Shown here: piece after piece, positions 1,875-63,161 of the stretch
Layout of the letters: each line of letters begins with the position of its first letter
Numbering within the stretch: the first letter of the stretch is position 1
Assembly: GCA_001606155.1 (NCBI GenBank)
Contig: LODT01000011.1
Location: 248,001 to 312,000 of the forward strand
Direction: 5' to 3'
From: Tieghemostelium lacteum
Taxonomy: Eukaryota > Evosea > Eumycetozoa > Dictyosteliales > Raperosteliaceae
Length of the DNA: 64,000 nt
The notes under the pieces: model-generated
Databases searched by the model: none
What the model was told of the DNA's origin: nothing
What the model saw: only the letters and a program-made list of their open reading frames with translations
Made by a program: the position numbers and the translations under genes

Positions 1875-2285
1875 ATGAGAGATAGAGATATTTTGTATAG
1901 AGAATTCTATAGAAGGGTATACTATAGGCCTGTTCTGTTGAGTGGCGAACATTGTTTTTATTGTGGACAAACGATTTGTAATTGCAATCAAAAGAAATTA
2001 ATATTTCAAGAACTCATTGACAAATATAGCGATGAAGAGTTAATTGCAACTATAGAGATTTTCAATGAGTGGGCAACTGTATCTGATGAAAAGAGATTAG
2101 ATCTAATTCAATGTTATAATGTTGAATATAAAGGAATAGGATACAAATATCATTTTCCAACAATTGAAAATATTGATTACTCAATTAAACCAATCCCCAA
2201 TTCACTCATTCCTTCCATTTTAAAAAGGTTTATTAAAGATTATATTCAAAAGAATCTATTTACATATCATTGTAGGTTTCAATGA
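1875..2285 (+). CDS. hypothetical small Cys-containing protein
   Basis: Single-exon frame of 136 codons beginning with ATG in an A-rich context, 125 bp after the preceding gene. Near the N-terminus a CFYCGQTICNC stretch could form a small metal-binding knuckle, but only four cysteines lie close together. The rest is charged and amphipathic (KYSDEELIATIEIFNEW) with no family I recognise. It sits between two paralogous F-box-like genes on the same strand and could be a short relative or a remnant of that family. Codon use resembles the flanking genes. Whether it is translated is uncertain. Confidence 0.5.
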   Translation: MRDRDILYREFYRRVYYRPVLLSGEHCFYCGQTICNCNQKKLIFQELIDKYSDEELIATIEIFNEWATVSDEKRLDLIQCYNVEYKGIGYKYHFPTIENIDYSIKPIPNSLIPSILKRFIKDYIQKNLFTYHCRFQ

Positions 2286-6587: not shown

Positions 6588-8765
6588 ATGGTTGAAAAAA
6601 TAACAATAAACAGTGCTCACCAAAAGCCAAACCAACACCACACCAAATACATTGGAAAATATTTTAATCAAAAACCTGAAAAGGATCATCAACCAAAGAA
6701 ACAATTCAAAGATACTTCTTTTGTTGAATCAAACCCAGAATTAGTTAGACAATCTATCATCAATCAAATGTATGTATCTATTTATGTGAATTGTCGGAAT
6801 AATTATCGTATTTTTAAAATATATCCCACACCCACCCACACATACATTTTAAAATAACAAATATTAATATTTTAAACTATGCTAAATAGTAATTATTACT
6901 TTAGTATTGAAAATCTATGTAGAGATATATATTTACGTTGTAATATGGATCAGGAAGGATGGGTTTCTATCCCATTCTTGTGTTCATTTAATAGAATGAG
7001 ATCATATGATTACAAGACAACTTGTGATGCAATTCAACATTCAGATCATGTGGAACTCAATGCTGAGAATGACAAATTGAGAATTAGAAATAATGATAAT
7101 AGAAAAATGTGGATATTGACTGATGAAGTAAAGAATGGATTTTTAACAGCTAGATCACAACAGCAGGAGAGTAGTGAAGGTTGGGAGACTGTACATTCAA
7201 AGAACCATCATAATGGTCCAAAGAAATCACAGAGTACTGATAATGTATCTGGTACTACTACACTGGAACCAACAGTCTTTGAATTCAGTTCTGATGAAAG
7301 TGAAGAAGTTGATTTTTTCCAAAAAGAGAGAAGAAATTTTGATTTGAGAGTTGTAGATCAAAAGGATGATGAAAATGAATTCTATTCTTCTGATGAAGAT
7401 ATTAACTATAGTGATGGTGAAGGACTTCTAGATGATTACAGTGATGAAGAAGAGTTAATGAAGAAACTTATCATTGTAACTCAATCCCAACACAAGAAGA
7501 ATAAGATAAATTCTAGAAAGTACATTAGTAATGAAATTGCATCTATCATTAACGATGGTTTGTACTTTTATGAACAGGATCTCAAGAGAAAGAAACAACA
7601 TTTCAAACCACAATCTAATAGTTATTCAACTGTCATCATTGAACAACAACAACATTCTAAAAAACAGGAGAATACTAAAGATCAGTCATCTTCAACTCCT
7701 ATTACTACTAATGCTTGGAATGTTGGTAAGAGTAGTAGTACTAGTTCAACAACAACTCCAACAATGGCACAGAGATTAAAAGAACATCATTTGGGTATAC
7801 CAATTGAAGCTGAGGTTCCTAAAGCACCTACAAGACTTTATTCACCAAAACCCAAGTCTACTTCGGGATCTTCAACAGGAAGTGGAAAGAACTTTAACAG
7901 AAAACCAATTCAACCTATAGGTTGGGTTGTAAGTTCAGATTCAGTTCAATCATCACCTAGTTCATCACCAAAGACTACTATAGGAGGTGTAAGTGGTAGT
8001 CTAGGTAATGACGATATTCCATATTTTCAACATCCATCCTATGAACTATTGGAAGAGAACGGATTCGTTCAACAGAAATACGACAAGTACAAGAGTAAAT
8101 GTCTAAAAGAGAGAAAGAGATTGGGTATTGGAAACAGTTCAGAAATGAACACACTCTTTAGATTCTGGTCACATTTCTTACGTACACATTTTATTCAAAA
8201 AATCTATCAAGAATTTTTGGAAATTGCTATAGAGGATCAGAAACAGGGTGCAGGTTATGGTATGGAATGTGTCTTTAGATACTTTAGTTATGGATTAGAA
8301 AAGAAATTCCGTTCTGAAGTCTTTGAAGATTTCCAAACCTACACTCTACAAGATTACAAATCTGGTAGTGTCTACGCACTAGAGAAATTCTGGGCCTATC
8401 TAAAGTACCGTAAAGATCAAACACCTTTAGTCATTAACCAAGAACTACAAGACATTCTCAACAAGTTCAAAACTATCAATGATTTTAGAAATTTTCTAAA
8501 AAAATCAACTTCAACCACCAGCACAACTTCAAAACAAAATAATAATAGCAGCTATAAACAACACAACAACTACTCAAACAAAAAATATAATAACCAACCA
8601 TTATCATCATCACACACCACCAAACCATCATCATCATCATCTTCTTACCAATCTAAAAGTAATACTTATTCATCATCAATGAAAACCAAAACAACAATTT
8701 CTTCAAATACTTCATCAAGTTCAACTAATACTATGATGAACAATACTAAACATGGCTTTATGTAA
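6588..8765 (+). CDS. larp1: LARP1-type La-motif and DM15 protein
   Basis: Two exons, 6588-6769 and 6890-8765 (685 residues). The join restores a clean La motif: VRQSIINQI then NYYFSIENLCRDIYLRCNMD, ending near residue 130. The C-terminal half carries DM15-type repeats (YELLEENGFVQQKYDKYKSK, then LGIGNSSEMNTLFRFWSHFL and GMECVFRYFSYGLEKKF). That La motif plus DM15 order is diagnostic of LARP1, which binds the cap and 5'TOP end of ribosomal-protein mRNAs and works downstream of TOR. Between them is a long disordered acidic, Ser/Thr/Gln-rich linker with SDE clusters that could be CK2 sites. The C-terminal tail is Ser/Asn-rich. Start chosen at the first ATG after a T tract; the intron is GTATGT to TAG. 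Confidence 0.93.
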
Positions 8766-15325: not shown

Positions 15326-16991
15326 ATGATAGAGAGAAAAGAATATTCAGATTTTAGTTCAGAGGATTCTGATGTTTTTGATAGTGAAGAGGAGGAGGAA
15401 GAAGATGAAGAAATTATTCATACCCTTAGAAAGACTAGAATGTCAAAGAATTTTAGTATATCCTCACCACCAACAGGTGCTGATATTCAAGGACATTTGA
15501 AAAGTCAAGAAACTTCACCAGAATTCTCAGAGAGAAATGATTCCAATAAAAATGGTAGTAATGGTAATGGAATATCGTCTCTATCAGACTATGAAGAAGA
15601 TGAAGCCTCTACCACTAGAGGTAAACCAATCCTAAATAACCTTTTTCAAAAATTTCTAAATAGAGAGATTATAAAGAAACTTCAACAGAGACAAAGTTAT
15701 ATCAACTCTAGACTAGAAAAACTAAAGAATGTAGTTGACCCTAACAAGATTCGTGGTCAATCTCTAAAGAGAGAAAAAGAAAGAATTCAAGAAGTGATTA
15801 AACTAAAAAAGAAACAGTTAAATGACCAAATGAATGCACCACCATTCATTAGACTAATGGATAAATGGTAAGACTTTTATAACTATATAAATGTATTGAA
15901 GGAATTAAAAATACTAATATATAAGGTTATATAGTGCATTTACTATAGGTTTAATTGTATTATTTATAAGTGAATTTATTCTATTAAGATCACCAAATTT
16001 GTTTTATCAATGGTATACATTGTTAATTGTTCCATTGATGGCATTTAGATTTATAATGTATCACAGGGCTAAATATCATTATTTTATGTTGGATTTCTGT
16101 TATCTCTGTCAGGTGCTACTACTGTTTTATTTGTTTGGACACACCTATGTTTTAGGAACTAATGTAACTGCCAATCTATTCAAATTGGTATTTGCATTGT
16201 GTAATGGACCATTATTGGCTGGTTGTTTAGTTTGGAGAAACAGTTTGGTTTTTCATGATGTTGATAAACTGACTTCAGTATTTATTCATTTATGTCCACC
16301 TATTGTCACCTATTGCCTTAGATGGTATCCACAATCACCTTATAGCGAGGAGTTGGCATGTGGTGGTTCAGAGTGCAGCTATACACTAAAGGAAGCCTAT
16401 TTTATCCCTATCCTTTTGTATATATTCTGGCAAGTGTTTTACTATGTAAAAACAGAGGTAGTTGATCAATCAAAATTGGCAAATGATAAAGATATTATGA
16501 CCAGTCTCAGATGGATGTCCATTAAACAACCTCATCCAGTGTACAAGTATCTCGTTAAAAAAGGTTTTACAGTTTCACCTTTGGTCATTCTAATGTTGGT
16601 ACAATTGTTATACACCCTTGGAACTCTATTAGCAGTTCCAATTATCATCAGATCTTTCTATTTACACACTGGTTTATTGATATTTGTATTTGTGGCAGTC
16701 AGTTGGAATGGTTCAAGTTTCTATTTTGAAGTATTCTCTGAAAACTATTCCAAAAGATTACTAAAAGAGGCTGCCGAGAAAGCATCTAGATCGTCATCTC
16801 CAACCAATACACCCTCAGATAGTAGTAACACCTCTCCTGGTTCAGATTCAAGTAATTCATCTACTTCCTCATCATCATCTTCCTCTAAAACACATCGTTT
16901 AAAAATCACCTCTATATATTCATTTTTAAAATTCTTGGTCATTTTCTTGGTTTCCCTATCATTTTACTTAAAATTGATTTTATCAATTTAA
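15326..16991 (+). CDS. gpc1: glycerophosphocholine acyltransferase 1 (GPC1/DUF2838)
   Basis: Exons 15326-15867 and 15926-16991 encode 535 residues. The enzyme acylates glycerophosphocholine to lysophosphatidylcholine, a step of phosphatidylcholine remodelling in the ER. The family core is clear: FYQWYTLLIVPLMAFRF, YHYFMLDFCYLCQVLLL, FALCNGPLLAGCLVWRNSLV, FHDVDKLTSVFIHLCPP and TYCLRWYPQ, with several membrane helices. The N-terminus is acidic and disordered and is followed by a short coiled coil, and the C-terminus is a Ser-rich tail plus a last helix. The intron is 58 bp (GTAAGA to ATAAG); an alternative acceptor nine bases downstream would drop three residues. Confidence 0.9.
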
Positions 16992-17206
16992 AATTAATAA
17001 AAATACAATCTGTACAATTTGAATAAAATAAAGCCTATATATAAATAGTATATTATAATATTATTTAAAACCTATTTAAACTAAAAGAAAACAACTCATC
17101 ATTTAAAATATTCAAATTGAGAATTGTGTGTGCTTGATGTTTGACTTTATTGTTGTAACTATTCTTTATTCTAGAAAGTACTTAATGTTGATCTTCATAT
17201 TGTTGT

Positions 17207-17420
17207 TTATTTGCATGTACATGGGCTGCATTTACAGGTAGTACATTTACATTCCTTAGTTTCTTTGTGTTCTGGTTTTTGTTCTGTTTGACCGCAGGTG
17301 CATGAGTCACCGCATTTGCAAGAGTCACCGCATTTACAAGAATGTGCCTATTAATTTGTGTGAAATTAATATTAAATATTTATTATATCTATATTATAAG
17401 TTTCAATGTAAAATTACCAT
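17207..17420 (-). CDS. metallothionein-like Cys-rich protein, 47 residues
   Basis: Exon 1 is just the ATG (17420-17418). A GTAATT donor follows at once, and a TTAATAG acceptor opens exon 2 (17347-17207). The product has 12 cysteines in two clusters of six, CKCGDSCKCGDSCTC near the N-terminus and CKCTTCKCSPCTC at the C-terminus, joined by a Gln/Glu/Lys linker, with no aromatic residues. CXC spacing and composition are those of metallothioneins, which bind Cu, Zn or Cd through thiolate clusters. GC content of exon 2 is well above that of its surroundings. Metal choice is not deducible. Such short genes are easily missed by gene finders. Confidence 0.85.
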
Positions 17421-17720
17421 TTTTATATATATATGTGTTGTTGAATTCAAATTTAATTAAAATTAAAAAAAAAAAAAATTATAAAAATAGTTCAAATTTT
17501 ACTTAGTTTAGTTGCTCATTATGGTCAATTTACAAATTAAGAAATTTAAATTAATTTGTGCAAGTAAAGGATTTTATTTCATTTTAGATTCTATTGAAAA
17601 GACAATCTTAAATTGATAACAATTGAATGGGTTTTTTATTTTTTTATTTACATTAACCTCTTTGTGAGCTGAACAAACCAAAAAAAATTAATCTTTGTGA
17701 TGTTTTCATTACCAAGTGGA
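17421..17720. promoter_or_regulatory. upstream region of the metallothionein-like gene
   Basis: This 300-bp gap lies between the ATG of the metallothionein-like gene and the 3' end of the WD40 gene on the same strand. It contains an A tract at 17466-17478 (T on the coding strand). I see no clear metal-response element of the animal TGCRCNC type. Confidence 0.4.
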
Positions 17721-18373
17721 TTATTCATGATTACGTTTATGATTATTTTTGGAAGGAGGTGTGCTGGTAGTATTATTATTATTATTAATATCGAGTCGAG
17801 AACTATCAAAAGGTCTTGTCCAAACTTTAATTGTGTGATCATCAGAAGCTGAACAAAATAAATAAGGTGAGATTGGTGACCAACAAACACAATTAACAGT
17901 TCCAGTGTGTCCAGGTAATGTTTCCAAAAGAGTACCAGATTGACGATGCCATACATAGATTTGATGATCTTCGGAACCAGATAGTACAAATGCTTCATCA
18001 GCACCACCAAAACATGATCGAATGACAAATCTACCTTGTTTCTGACCACGATATTTCTGAATAATAGTCTTTTTATCTAAATCCCACAAATGGATTTCCT
18101 GACTAGCGCTGATATTAATGAGTGCAGTATGACCATCGTTTGAGAGTTCCATACTGGTAATTGCATCGGTTTCAGGTATACAAATTGGACTGTTTCCAGA
18201 AGTGGTGTCGATATCATAGATTCTAATCTTTTTCTCTTGACAAATAACAATAAATTGACTGCCATCCCTGGTGACAGAGAGATCATTTACTCTGGCAATA
18301 CACCATGATGTCAGTGGTGAATTAATTACTATATTATTTATATGACTCTGTGCTATATTATTATTACCATTAC

Positions 18374-18404
<31 letters not shown>

Positions 18405-20068
18405 TAAATGATCTAAATCGCCAATACTCCAAAGATGTACATATCTATCCATACCACCGCTAAAGAATCGTTTTCCATCTGGATGCCATATACAAGATGA
18501 GATTGCTTCGGTGTGTTTAGAAAAAGTTCTTAGACATTGTCCATTCATATTCCAAAGTTTAATATTATGATCATAGCTGGCTGATAGTAAAAACTGATCA
18601 TCAGGTGACCATGCCAAATATGAAACCTCCTTAGTGTGACCTTGGAGAATATGTAATGGCTTAGGTTCAATTGGATTGGATTTATAAACACCAGACATAT
18701 CCCAAATGATAATAAGATTATCCTTTGAACAACTTGCCAATTTTAAACCATTATGTGAGAATTTAATAAACCATACCTCATCACGATGTTTATCCTTCAA
18801 TGTAAATCTGGCTTCTGAAGGCATCATTTGGTCTTTACTACAGACATGATCTTTAAATAAACTAATATATGGTTCATTGGTGTTGTGATATAGACATTTA
18901 CCAATTTGGTGTTGTATAGATTCCTTTATCAAATGTTCCAATCTTTTCTCAGGTAATAAAACTTCTGAGCTAACATATTCTATAGTAGTATCAATTTATA
19001 CATTGTGTTAGATGTGATTACAAATATTAATAATATCATAATTCTAAATCTAACAAAAACATACTTCTAATATTATTTAAAAGATCAACTCTCGATAGAG
19101 TCTTACTAGTACTATTATTATAAATGCAAATCTCTTTTTTCTTTGATTCAATCTGTTGAGCATTAGAGCACATGATTAAACTAGTGAGAGTTTGTAATTT
19201 ATGTGGATCTGTACTGATTGGTGTAATTTCACTTCTCAGACATACCAATGCCTCTTTTACATTCTTTTTATCTATTAATTCTAAATATTTTTGGCTATAA
19301 ATTAAAAATTTAACGCTCTGTGTGTATATTTAAAAATAAAGTTAATTGTCTGTTTCATTGGGTGCATTAATAAATGGATGTACATACATTTAAATCATCT
19401 TTACTCTGAAGATTTAAATAGGGTATTAAAGATTCAATTTTATTCCATTCACCACCCAATATACATTGAGAAAATTGTGCAATTTCTTTAGTTTGAAGTG
19501 ATACACCACTTTCTTTTTCTAATAGTTCTGCAGAGTTTCTAATTTCATCAAAATAGGTTAGAATTTATAATTTAGCAATGAAGATGAAAATACATACTTG
19601 TAGCCTAAACTATGTAAAGATTGTACTAATAATCTAACCATTTCATTCTTATTAAAATAGCATGAAACTAGATTATTTTCATCATCTACAGAGATTCTAT
19701 TATTTGATTTGGTGTAATCTAATACACCATTACTGTTTTCGTTACTATTTACGCTATTTTCCATTCTTTTAAACACAGGTATATAGATTTTTTCAGAGTT
19801 AATATTGCTATCAAATGTTTTTTCCTGTTTCTCTGGTTTGAATTTCTTTATTGGTCTAGATTCCTCAATATCCTCTTCTTGCTCTTCTTGTTCTATTTGT
19901 TCTTCTTGATCAAATGTAGTGGGAGGAGGTAGATTATTATTGTTATCACTATTGTTAATAGTTGATTGGGAAGTTGAATTTACCTCCGAAGTTATCAAAT
20001 TATTGTGATCCGTAATGTTTGATACAACGAACCCTAACTCTTTATAAACTTGTAAAGAGATAGAACTG
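17721..20068 (-). CDS. WDR26-like LisH/CTLH/WD40 protein
   Basis: Four exons, 20068-19598, 19538-19388, 19317-19065 and 18979-17721, about 711 residues plus an unresolved start. An acidic disordered N-terminus is followed by a LisH segment (NKNEMVRLLVQSLHSLGYK then NSAELLEKESGV), a CTLH-like stretch (SVKFLIYSQKYLELIDKKNV), LLPEKRLEHLIKESI, and seven or so WD repeats (for example LILWNMNGQ-like LWDL and IKVWTRPF ends). This order is WDR26, a subunit of the GID/CTLH ubiquitin ligase. No in-frame ATG precedes 19763. One possible first exon is ATGGGATA at 20214-20207 with a weak GTAGAA donor, which keeps phase but starts two bases after the neighbouring gene's stop. Confidence 0.88.
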
Positions 20069-53224: not shown

Positions 53225-56200
53225 ATGAATTCAATAAAAAAAATTAAGTGTCTTCAATGTCAGGAGATTATAAATTATCAAGATTCTGGTGTTTATAGAT
53301 ACCAGTGTTGTGAATGTGATAGGTTTAATCTTTGTAGACAATGTTATGAAATGGAATGCATGTTTTATCATATTCCACAAACTCCCGAAAGACCTTACAA
53401 AATTATAAATTTGCCTATAGATTATAAACCAATTCAACATACATGTACTGCAATTGCATTACCTCACTATTATACCAGAGAAAAAGGTATGTTTTAGTAA
53501 ATTTTAAAATTAGATTTTTTTTGAAATATCTAATGTCATTATAAAATGTAGCACTTCAAAAAGATTTAGGATATCTAAGAGGATCATCTTCATTCAGAAC
53601 TATGAAAAATGCATTTAAATATTTTGAAGATAGATTATGTTTAGGTGTTAGATCTCCAGTTAAAGTGAGTGAATTCACACCATCTGGATTCTCAAAATAT
53701 CGTTGGTATACATTTAAAGAGATACATGTAATGTCAAATTACATTTCCAATGCATTGAGTTATTTTGTATCTCCACAAGAGTCAATATCTATATATTCTA
53801 ATAACTGTTTAGAGTGGTATATTGTGGATTTTGCATCACTTTGGAATAGATATGTAATGGTACCTATTCACAGCTCCTCCAATTCCATGTCTCTGCTAGA
53901 GATATTCCAAAACTCAGAATCCAAGGCTATACTATGTCAATCTAAAAATCTTGGAAATATAGTTCAATTATATATTGATAACCCTCATTTGGAACCACTC
54001 AGATTGATCATTCAGAGAGAAGATGATGTTGATGATCAACTAGTAAGACAATTACCTAAATCTACAAAATTCTTAACTTATAGTCAACTAATGCAATTTG
54101 GTATGAATAACCCAGCTACTTTTCCTCAAGGTCCTAGACAGCCTAATGATATAGCACAGATTAACTATACCTCTGGAAGCACTGGTGTTCCAAAAGGTGT
54201 ACTATTCAACGATGATATATTTCTTAAACAAATAACTCCATTTTGTTCCCATCACTATCCCTTTGCATTACACAATCTAGTTCCACTCTCACATGCTGAT
54301 AGAATTATAACATGGTCATTTTTAAGTGTAGGTTCAAGAGTTGGTATATTTTCAGGTGTGAATGAAACTATTTTTGAAGATGCAGCGCTCATTCAACCAC
54401 ACATATTCTATAATGTACCTAGACTCTTTAATCTCCTATTTTCTCAGTATAAAGATGGGTTGGAGGCAATTAGAAGAAATAATCCATTATTTTCTTTAGA
54501 AGAAGCTGACAATATGATTATACCAAAATTCAAGAAAATCTATGGAGAAAGAGTAAAGATTGTAGGTACTGCATCAGCACCCATAAGTCAAGATGTATTA
54601 GCATTCATTAAAAAGTGTTTTGGAAGTGATGTTCATTTCCTTTATGCCTATGGTCAAACAGAGGCTTTCTTTGTCAGTTTTAATGGACGTCTATTGGATG
54701 GTATAAAGTATCGTTTAGATCCAGTACCTGAACTAGACTATTTCCCTAGTGATAAACCTTATCCTAGAGGTGAGTTGCATATACAATCGCCATGGATGTC
54801 ACAAGGATACAACAAAAACACAACAGATATATCATTTGAAAATGGGTGGTTGAAAACTGGTGATATAGTTGAAGTTATAGCTGAGAATACTATTAATATA
54901 ATTGGTAGACGAAAAATGGCATTTAAATTGTCAAATGGTAAATTTGTAAGTCCTCATCTACTAGAGAATGCATTTGTCACTAGTAAATTGATTGACCAGA
55001 TATTTATCTATGGTGACAGTCTAAAAGAGTTCTTGGTGGCTATTGTCATTCCAAATCAAGCTACCATAAAGAAATACAAAGAATCTCATAGTGATATAAA
55101 ATCATGTCAAGTTTTGAAGAAATCTATTATGTCGGATTTTAAAGAAATTGCCAAAAAGAGGGTTTTGGCAAACTATGAGATTCCAAATGAAATTGAATTG
55201 GATGATACTATTTGGTCACCTTCTAATGGTTTGGTATTGTCAAGTGGTAAAGTTAGTAGAGCCAATATATACCAATTCTACAAAACTAGAATTCAACAAA
55301 TTTATGAAAGACTTGAAAAACTTGAACAATCCTTACGTGATCCATTATCACTTGACCAATTTATTAGAAAACTATTGAATATATCTGAGAATGATTCTAT
55401 TGATTTTGATAAAGTTTCATTTTCTCAGATAGGAGGTGACTCATTTAGTGCTGTAAGACTTTGTTCACTATTAAAAGATAATCATGATATTGAAATTTCA
55501 CCAACACTGTTACTTAACAAACATGTAATGATATCTTCTATCATTAAATTAATTGAACAAAATGGAATGTCTAGTAATGTTGAAAGTCTATTAAAAGTAG
55601 ATTGGAGATCAGAAATGAAGATTCCTCAAGACATAATTTCAGGTGTACAATCACTAGGTTTTAAATTGGTACATTGTGAAGATAAATTACAAAACAATGT
55701 ATTTCTTACTGGTTGCACTGGATTTTTAGGTTCATTTTTATTATATGAACTATTAAAAAACAATAGACAATTTGGAAAGATTTATTGTCTAACCAGACAA
55801 AATACACAATCTAAACAGCAGTCAAGAGAATATATTATCAATGTTCTAAAAAAGAACAAAATGAATCTTGGTGGAATGGATACCAATAGAATTGTACCTG
55901 TTCATGGTAATCTTGGGTCACCTAATCTTGGGTTATCTCATGTTGACCAAGTAATTCTAAATTCTGATGTAGATATAATCTTACACAATGGTGCCATAGT
56001 TAACATGGTTCTACCTTACCATAACCTTAAAGATGTAAATGTCGAATCTACCAAAGAAATAATAAGAATGGCACTTTCTGGAAGTAAATTAAAAAAACTA
56101 GCCTATGTTTCCACTTTGGGTATTTTTATGGAAAATGGTGAATTTCGACACCATGAAATCTCAGAAGGTACTGTACCAACTACTGATATTCTTAATGTAA

Positions 56201-56892
56201 ACTCTGGATATTCTTCAACAAAATTCATATCAGACAGTTTAGTAAGATCAGTGTCCAAAGAACTGGGTATTCCAACAATGATATTCAGACCAGGAACTAT
56301 ATTTGCACAATCTGAAAGTGGTTTTGATAATCAAAATGATTTTGTAGGGTTAAATATAAAATCAATATTAAACTCAAAATCCTATCCACAGTTAAGTGAT
56401 GATACTATAAATGACAATTCAACAAACTATTTTAATTTATCACCAGTAGATTGGGTCGCTAATTCCATTGTATCGTTAGTATCTCATCATGAGTATTGGC
56501 AACTTGACCAAACTATAGGTAAAATAGAATCAAAGATATTTAACATGTCAAATAATTATTCAATACATTTGAATGAGTTGTGCCAGTACATTGACAGTGT
56601 GTACCCTTTGACACCTGTTACATTGGATCAATGGAAACATCAACAATTTACATCACCAACCTCACCAATATATCCAATGAAACAAATGTTTTATAAATCT
56701 CTAGATTATATGGCGGTGGATGGTGCTGAATACAAATCTTCTTTCCCAGGATTCTATAAACATCAATTTTCATCTAAAATAACAAAAAATTATCTAGAAA
56801 AAATCAATAGAAAAGAGTGTGAACCTATTTCTCAGGACACTTTAACCAATAATATTCGTTATCTTTTATCTCTATTAGATATTAATAAATAA
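53225..56892 (+). CDS. ZZ finger, adenylation, carrier and thioester-reductase fusion (CAR-like)
   Basis: Exons 53225-53486 and 53552-56892 encode 1200 residues. Residues 1-60 form a ZZ-type zinc finger (CLQCQEI, then YQCCECDRFNLCRQCYE). An acyl-adenylating domain follows with YTSGSTGVPKG near 293 and YAYGQTEAF. A carrier domain holds GGDSFSAVRL near 715, where Ser718 would take phosphopantetheine. An NAD(P)-binding reductase has TGCTGFLGS near 807 and the YSSTK catalytic pair near 974. This adenylation-carrier-reductase order is that of carboxylic acid or fatty acyl reductases, which turn an acid into an aldehyde or alcohol. The substrate is unknown. All key motifs look intact; the N-terminal ZZ finger is the odd part. 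Confidence 0.92.
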
Positions 56893-60651: not shown

Positions 60652-63161
60652 TTAGTGATGACGGTGTGAATGGTGAACATTAGTGAGGAAGTATATGAAA
60701 ATGATAAATAATAAAAATAATACAGAGGTTAAAATGATTGAAAATTGTGATCTGGTCTGGAGTTTTTTGATTTGATTTTGTTGATCAATTACAGTTTTTT
60801 GTAGATCATCAAGTTGTTTTGAAAGTTGTTGTGTGGCACCAATGTTCTCAAATATCAGAGATTCACTATTGATTACCAAGAGATTTTCAATTTCTCTATC
60901 ACCTAGTACTCTGTTACCAATAGTCTTTACAGAATTTGGTAGAATAGCTTGTAACTCTTGTGCCATTACACCTCTATCGGTGATATCTTGGTATGGGTCA
61001 CGACCATTCAGGTAAGCCCACTGTGGATTCAATTTGTAGTCATATATCTTTAGTTTTTGTACATTTCTTAGATTTACTTTAGTGTCTACTGATCTGAGGT
61101 CATGTTTAAGTCTCATATCAGATGGATGGTATACACCCTCACTTGCATAGATGGTACCTTGAACTGATAATGCAAAAGCAGGTGCTTCAACATTGATACC
61201 AACTTTACCGTTATAAGTTATAGTCTTTTCTTGGTCACCTCTTTGCCATTCACATCCGTGTCCCATTTTATTGGTATTCAGACTCGATGGAATTCCCAAA
61301 GATGTCAATGTATTTGATATTGGTTGTATATGTTGTGATTGAGTTTGTTGTTGTTGCTGTTGTTGTTGTTGTTGTTGATTATTATTTACAATTCTCGGAG
61401 AAATTGGACTATGTCCAGGTGATTGTAAACGCATTGATGAAAAATCTGGAAAAGTATTTAAATTACTTCCAAAAGTGTTGAATGGTGATGTTGGTGTATT
61501 TAAAGGTTGGTGTTGACTTGATGTTGTAGTTGTTGTAGTTGACGTATTATTATTGTTATTATTTGGTAAATGAGTATGAGTGTCTGGTGTGTGTACAGGT
61601 GATAAATCAGTGGCTGCTGGAGAGACTGATGGTGAACTAATAGCAGTTCTAACAATCAAAGGTGGAGAAACATAACTTACAATACAATACTCCTGTGCCA
61701 TACAACGACCATACAATGAAACAACCAATTGGTTATACTCTTGATGTGGATTAGGTTGACCATTACGACGTGCATTGTTTAATGTTGCCTTTCTGAAATG
61801 TAGTCTCTGTACAGATACTAAAGTTCCAAATTGAATGGCAACAGGTTTGGGTGCGTGTTCACCTTGTTTCTCACGCTTAGAATTTGTCTGAAACAACTCT
61901 ACTTCATTTTCAGGTTGTGTCATATCAGTTCGGTTCTTTATACCCTTAATTGTCAATGTCAAACCATTTATTGGCATCTTGCTACCCTCAATCAATAGAT
62001 AACTAGGTGTCTGTGATGGATCAATATTTGAACTACTACTAGACAAATTAGACATGTAATCATTCTGAATCTTTGGATACACTGCTGTTATATCCAATTG
62101 GAAATGATTTCTTCTACAATAAACCCATGAATTATTTATAAATGAAAATCCTTTAGATGCAATAATATTCAATAATGGTGTTGGCCTAATTTGTTTGTTT
62201 AAAAAAATATGTAAATTATTAGTATTTTTGATTTATGTATCTGTATAATGAAAGAATATGAAACTTACATATCCTCACCATTGGCATTTAGAGTTGGGTA
62301 CCAAGTTTCAGATTTATAATTTGACCAAGTGAATGGAGGTGGTTCATTGTAACCATTGGAAGAAAGTGGGTCTGAATTTTCATTTTCTAATGATAAAAAG
62401 TTTTCAGAGGGCAACATTGGGGAGTGATGAGGTGATCCAATGGGAGTGTGATGTGGTGACCCATTTGGTGAATGTCTTGGTGAATAGGTGCCAGATGATG
62501 TCAATCCAACACGATTTGGTATTGGTAAATGTTGTGAATGGTCATGTGTTTGAGTTATTGATATACTTGGTATAGGGTACAATGATGCAGATGACAATGT
62601 TGAATTGCCTTGTTGTTGTGGTTGTTGTTGCTGTTGTTGTTGTTGTTGTTGGAATGGCTGTTGTTGTGGTATTTGTTGCGGTTGTGAATTCAATGAAGTG
62701 TATTGGCTGTTAAGTGAAGTTAACTGTTGTTGATGTTGTTGTAATTGTTGAAAGGTATCAGAAAGATTCAAAAAAGTACTACCAGACTGTGTCATGGTAG
62801 GTACATTACTATTTACATTTGAAGAGTGACTATAAGACATAGGTTGTTGCTGTTGCTGTTGTTGTTGCTGTTGTTGTTGTTGTTGGTTATTATTGTCATT
62901 TGAGAAACCTTCTTCAATCTTAATCTTTCTCTTTTTATTAGCATCGTCAACCATACTACTAAAACCAAATGAAGTATTCAATGCCTGTCCTTGAGATATA
63001 TTAATAGCTTGACTGACACCACTACTGTTTACATTTGGGAATCCACTTACATCCCCACCATCCATTCCTAAATTCAATAGCTGTTGAGTAGATGATGATA
63101 TATGTACATTATTACTATTGTTTAGACCATCATGGCTATGCTGTTGATAACCATTATCCAT
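60652..63161 (-). CDS. mrfA: MrfA, MYRF-like self-cleaving membrane-tethered transcription factor
   Basis: Exons 63161-62269 and 62185-60652 encode 808 residues. The N-terminal 300 are Gln/Asn/Ser-rich. The Ndt80/PhoG-like DNA-binding domain starts near 298 (MPTPLLNIIASKGFSFINNS, YCRRNHFQLDITAVYP, LYGRCMAQEYCIV). A peptidase S74 intramolecular chaperone domain follows with HPSDMRLKHD, where Ser653 and Lys658 have the spacing of the MYRF catalytic dyad. A coiled coil, one membrane helix (FSIILTSVLFLLFIIFIYFL) and a His-rich end complete it. The family trimerises, cleaves itself in the ER and frees the N-terminal factor to the nucleus. In D. discoideum MrfA drives prestalk genes. The intron is GTAAGT to ATTAG. 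Confidence 0.95.

Follow-up and report, generated by a model that had tools for sequence, protein, structure and literature searches.

A putative metallothionein-like gene with a start-codon intron in a dictyostelid-like genome

Does a short gap between two protein-coding genes carry a further gene that open reading frame (ORF) scans overlook, and is its product a metallothionein? The question is raised by a Cys-rich frame within a 64-kb stretch of DNA, referred to below as the window. This minus-strand candidate is flanked by the gene for a DUF2838 protein (PF10998), whose plus-strand frame ends at 16991, and by a WD40 gene, whose minus-strand frame ends at 17721. To our knowledge, neither neighbour is a known metal-handling gene. 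Splice enumeration resolved positions 17207-17420 of the minus strand into an ATG, a GT...AG intron and a second exon, as follows:

17418..17420, minus strand: exon 1, the start codon alone (ATG), from the sequence and splice enumeration
17348..17417, minus strand: phase-0 intron of 70 nt, GTAATT...TAATAG, 12.9% GC, from splice enumeration
17207..17347, minus strand: exon 2, codons 2-47 and a TAA stop, 141 nt, 41% GC, from splice enumeration

The predicted product has 47 residues, MAHSCKCGDSCKCGDSCTCGQTEQKPEHKETKECKCTTCKCSPCTCK. These coordinates, the split ATG and the product were all correct, base for base, in the initial annotation. The Cys frame has stop codons immediately 5' of the acceptor and does not appear in the list of ATG-started ORFs of at least 20 residues. 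The gene is missed by ATG-ORF scans because the intron directly follows the ATG, and the earlier proposal that short length and a split start codon conceal it from such scans is borne out by its absence from that list.

To enumerate gene models, we required a single intron of 40-400 nt, an ATG between position 17900 and the Cys core and the retention of at least 12 Cys. Four one-intron models were retrieved, with a single acceptor common to all. Three of them were rejected, as their ATG falls inside the WD40 coding ORF (17721-18827) and their introns span 327-387 nt. Of the enumerated models, only the one with the ATG/GTAATT donor and the 70-nt intron starts outside the WD40 gene. Start-codon-intron models, defined by ATG followed by GT and an AT-rich intron upstream, were detected at three of the 575 AG sites of the window that open a frame of 30 codons or more lacking an early Met, sites that overlap and are not independent. 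One of the three is the metallothionein-like gene, and the other two precede frames without evident coding character. The size and GC content of the 70-nt intron are in line with 22 rough intron candidates of the window (median 87 nt), which are uncurated, some doubtless false, and subject to a 22% GC limit imposed by the script. Among these candidates, the donor GTAATT recurs at three distinct sites.

Introns of this kind form an established class, found in genes for short Lys-rich proteins, according to the relevant part of Nielsen and Wernersson (2006, PMC1626468). As in that class (PMC1626468, same part), the gene model has a phase-0 intron between codons 1 and 2 and a short Lys-rich product, with Lys at 8 of the 47 residues. 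We infer that the start-codon intron is spliced and that the gene is expressed.

A chance origin of the Cys frame is excluded, because none of 200 simulated windows approached it. In these first-order Markov sequences, modelled on the 64-kb window, the maximum was nine Cys per 46 residues (mean of maxima 6.3), compared with 12 in the real frame. No triple-CXC cluster occurred in any of the 200 simulations, and the real frame has two. Among the 805 open frames of at least 30 residues in the window, two others are equally rich in Cys, at 62593 (20 Cys) and 62845 (13 Cys), both on the plus strand. Neither was retained as a gene, both being poly-Cys readings opposite the poly-Gln codons of a minus-strand ORF (62265-63161). 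Searches for Cys-rich peptides can be misled by such frames. Exon 2 is distinct in composition, its 41% GC standing against the value for the intron, 16.5% in the 200 nt upstream and 21% in the 200 nt downstream. Overall codon usage does not single out the Cys frame, at 0.04 bits per codon, compared with 0.04 for one opposite-strand frame and -0.01 for one same-strand frame. In two-fold NNY codons, C-ending codons were chosen in 10 of 16 cases, compared with 596 of 2517 in 16 ORFs of the window (p = 0.0011, on small numbers). This over-use would fit a well-expressed gene.

All 12 Cys of the 47-residue product occur in CXC motifs, arranged in two clusters of three motifs each. Their spacing is Cx1Cx3Cx1Cx3Cx1C - x14 - Cx1Cx2Cx1Cx2Cx1C, and the first cluster overlaps a short tandem repeat:

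17294..17338, minus strand: cluster 1, C5-C19, CKCGDSCKCGDSCTC, six Cys in three CXC
17252..17293, minus strand: Cys-free linker of 14 residues, GQTEQKPEHKETKE
17213..17251, minus strand: cluster 2, C34-C46, CKCTTCKCSPCTC, six Cys in three CXC
17285..17338, minus strand: three tandem 18-nt units (CKCGDS, CKCGDS, CTCGQT), identities 16/18, 13/18 and 11/18

The product shares with metallothioneins in general a low mass (47 residues), a high Cys content (12) and CXC motifs (six). It contains no Phe, Trp or Tyr, in keeping with the absence or great scarcity of aromatic residues in metallothioneins, and has two His. Composition and Cys spacing, taken from the predicted product, support the metallothionein reading. 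The stretch very probably encodes a tiny Cys-rich, putatively metal-binding protein. Splice models, the chance simulation, composition and the AG-site background all make a metallothionein-like gene whose ATG is immediately followed by an intron, as originally proposed, the best reading of the sequence.

The three tandem 18-nt copies were also retrieved by a separate repeat search, in another register. Between units 1 and 2, 16 of 18 bases are identical; the initial annotation had taken the tandem units as a sign of recent internal duplication. That claim was not upheld, as independent draws encoding CKCGDS, taken from the codon usage of the 16 window ORFs, average 14.9/18 identical bases and reach at least 16/18 in 38% of cases (P = 0.38). 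An old internal duplication is plausible.

Candidate regulatory signals flank the gene on both sides:

17465..17489, minus strand: candidate core promoter upstream of the ATG, a TATA-like stretch and then 14 consecutive T, read by eye
17146..17170, minus strand: two polyadenylation-like AATAAA signals, which begin 37 nt (position 17170) and 56 nt (position 17151) after the stop

We take the TATA-like stretch and T-run to resemble Dictyostelium core promoters. The 300 nt upstream contain no metal-response motifs of the metazoan MRE, yeast ACE1 or GTAC type; the motifs sought come from other lineages (animals, yeast and algae), and their absence proves little here. A scan for sigma-type promoters and terminators, a method not meant for eukaryotes, gave nothing above shuffled sequences. 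Rfam and tRNA scans of the window returned no matches.

Pfam searches up to E = 10 retrieved three families only, all of them metallothioneins and all below their cut-offs. PF02068 (PEC) scored 16.7 bits against a curated threshold of 31.8, PF01439 9.4 against 23 and PF12749 7.4 against 22. The PEC match was dismissed as a sign of plant ancestry, since two of five shuffles with the Cys positions kept also matched PF02068, one of them better than the gene (E 0.0017 vs 0.0094). None of five full shuffles matched any Pfam family. Because Cys-kept shuffles match and full shuffles do not, the profile sees Cys spacing, not ancestry. A family assignment does not follow, given that all scores are sub-threshold and one Cys-kept shuffle outscores the gene. 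Equally, a sub-threshold score does not exclude the metallothionein class, because a provisional sequence of Arabidopsis MT1c, a short metallothionein, misses its own Pfam cut-off (15.9 vs 23 bits); a provisional pea metallothionein sequence passes it (65.3). NCBIfam and PDB sequence searches with the product gave no matches, and tblastn against phages and plasmids detected no relatives at E up to 1.

A degenerate CKCGD-pattern search of viral and prokaryotic collections returned six viral and seven prokaryotic stretches, of which 0 of 13 were full-length relatives and none had the 6+6 layout. Read frame by frame, they prove to be short frames that arose by chance, larger proteins, or Cys-rich proteins of other kinds. 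Since CKCGDSC recurs in such unrelated bacterial and viral contigs, the motif is weak evidence for descent, and its presence in 13 unrelated stretches makes convergence a live possibility. Three of the stretches deserve separate mention. In the viral contig IMGVR_UViG_3300033146_003022 (L005, about 2007-2033, minus strand), the retrieved stretch contains, close to its end, a frame of 22 residues, MKNCNCKICKCGDSCSCNCCNC, possibly a miniature metallothionein-like peptide. In Deltaproteobacteria UBA2409 (L012, about 6804-6830, minus strand), a frame of 61 residues begins much like a signal peptide and continues as a CXC-rich body that includes CKCGDSCKC, possibly a secreted bacterial metal-binding protein. 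An uncultured member of the Alphaproteobacteria (L010, about 7798-7824, minus strand) has a Cys-rich stretch with CKCGDSCSCGDNCKC before a hydrophobic segment, within a 319-residue frame.

Plant type 1 metallothioneins have two terminal domains with six Cys in each (MT1 definition as given in part of PMC8836122), an arrangement shared by the predicted product. The N-terminal spacing, CxCx3CxCx3CxC, is identical to that of the provisional Arabidopsis MT1c and pea sequences. Alignments to these two sequences exceed those of Cys-kept shuffles, of which 0/1000 and 1/1000 reach the score. However, the C-terminal spacing, Cx1Cx2Cx1Cx2Cx1C, differs from both, and the linker has 14 residues compared with 42 in the provisional pea sequence. 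At the family level, C-domain spacing and similarity do not place the product among plant type 1 proteins, and PF01439 stays below its cut-off. Common descent does not follow from these comparisons. Drosophila MtnA and the Neurospora copper metallothionein, also compared as provisional sequences, are short CXC-rich chains like the product. Their similarity to it does not clearly extend beyond Cys positions, with 62 and 107 of 1000 Cys-kept shuffles reaching the score.

In known clusters of six Cys, roughly two divalent or four Cu(I) ions are bound. We consider it highly likely, from sequence features, that the locus is a genuine gene, short and with two exons, in a dictyostelid-like genome and that it encodes a 47-residue protein, predicted to be a cytosolic metallothionein. 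We infer metal binding, metal preference and cytosolic location from the same features. The unstructured chain would fold around metal ions of the d10 type, and each of its two triple-CXC groups of six Cys would form a single metal-thiolate cluster. Judging from the known clusters, each could take up approximately two Zn or Cd ions or approximately four Cu(I) ions, and the charged 14-residue linker would join the two. Such a protein may act as a buffer for zinc and copper in the cytosol and lessen the effect of an overload of cadmium or copper.

The gene could instead be coding and its Cys-rich product no metal buffer at all, acting for example as a redox-active or structural zinc peptide or as a specialised copper-delivery peptide. 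Metal-buffer function is read from composition only, and CKCGDSC is also found inside larger proteins (L003, L010 and L013), so that the motif alone defines no function. Nevertheless, the chain consists of two triple-CXC clusters and a linker, leaving no room for another domain, and lacks aromatics, which makes this alternative improbable.

It is very improbable that the Cys-rich frame is a decaying gene copy, no longer expressed, or that its true start lies elsewhere and the ATG/intron model is accidental. Such models do arise by chance, as the start-codon intron models found at three of 575 comparable acceptors include two without evident coding character. Against this, the frame is intact with all 12 Cys kept, a donor, an acceptor, poly(A)-like signals and an upstream T-run are all present, and the other enumerated models need an ATG inside the WD40 gene. 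The codon statistics, being neutral, would also allow a chance open frame in AT-rich intergenic DNA, a reading that retains only a minute probability in view of a local GC content about twice that of both flanks and the fact that no simulated window came near.

GC content in the window ranges from 24.6 to 35.2% per 2 kb, Asn and Gln runs occur in its ORFs, and its introns are short and AT-rich. This low GC, the Asn/Gln runs, the introns and an NDT80/Peptidase_S74/MYRF-type protein fit the putative dictyostelid assignment made in the initial annotation. An ORF at 60652-62055 (minus strand) contains NDT80/PhoG DNA-binding, Peptidase_S74 and MYRF_ICA domains, and the Gln-rich ORF upstream of it (62265-63161) may be the first exon of the same gene, with a candidate junction between them. 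From its domains, the gene at 60652-63161 is apparently a homologue of myelin regulatory factor, of the sort known from Dictyostelium. Elsewhere in the window, a 1096-residue ORF (53602-56892, plus strand) combines AMP-binding, carrier and NAD_binding_4 reductase domains in a carboxylic-acid-reductase-like layout.

In Dictyostelium discoideum, DDB_G0288281 is annotated as a putative metallothionein, as stated in part of PMC3777012, and Table 1 of PMC7216689 records predicted metallothioneins for Cavenderia (two) and Dictyostelium (one) from GenBank as of November 2019. DDB_G0288281 and the two Cavenderia proteins are of the same annotated kind as our product, likened by annotation, and come from the same lineage if the window is dictyostelid. 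The initial annotation had considered a metal-buffering protein not previously described in this lineage, which was too strong, as putative metallothioneins are on record for both genera in those parts of PMC3777012 and PMC7216689. The kind of protein is not new, and the class of start-codon introns was already known. PMC3777012 cites Burlando et al. (2002) for a chemical assay that failed to detect metallothionein in D. discoideum, and the same section describes the nature of DDB_G0288281 and the existence of working metallothioneins in social amoebae as an open question. No paper among the literature matches listed, which took in a minority of subscription papers, studied a dictyostelid metallothionein gene experimentally.

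We suggest, tentatively and as a rather unlikely proposal when taken whole, that a lineage-specific metallothionein exists in dictyostelids, with a 6+6 CXC layout that resembles plant type 1 but evolved independently. Its start-codon intron would have concealed it from gene finders, and perhaps also from those asking how Dictyostelium can resist copper when an assay found no metallothionein. The gene illustrates how short genes with start-codon introns are lost from ORF-based annotation. Social amoebae live as phagocytes in soil and employ zinc and copper when dealing with bacteria. Given a compact candidate and its exact gene model, the question of a working metallothionein in these organisms can be tested directly.
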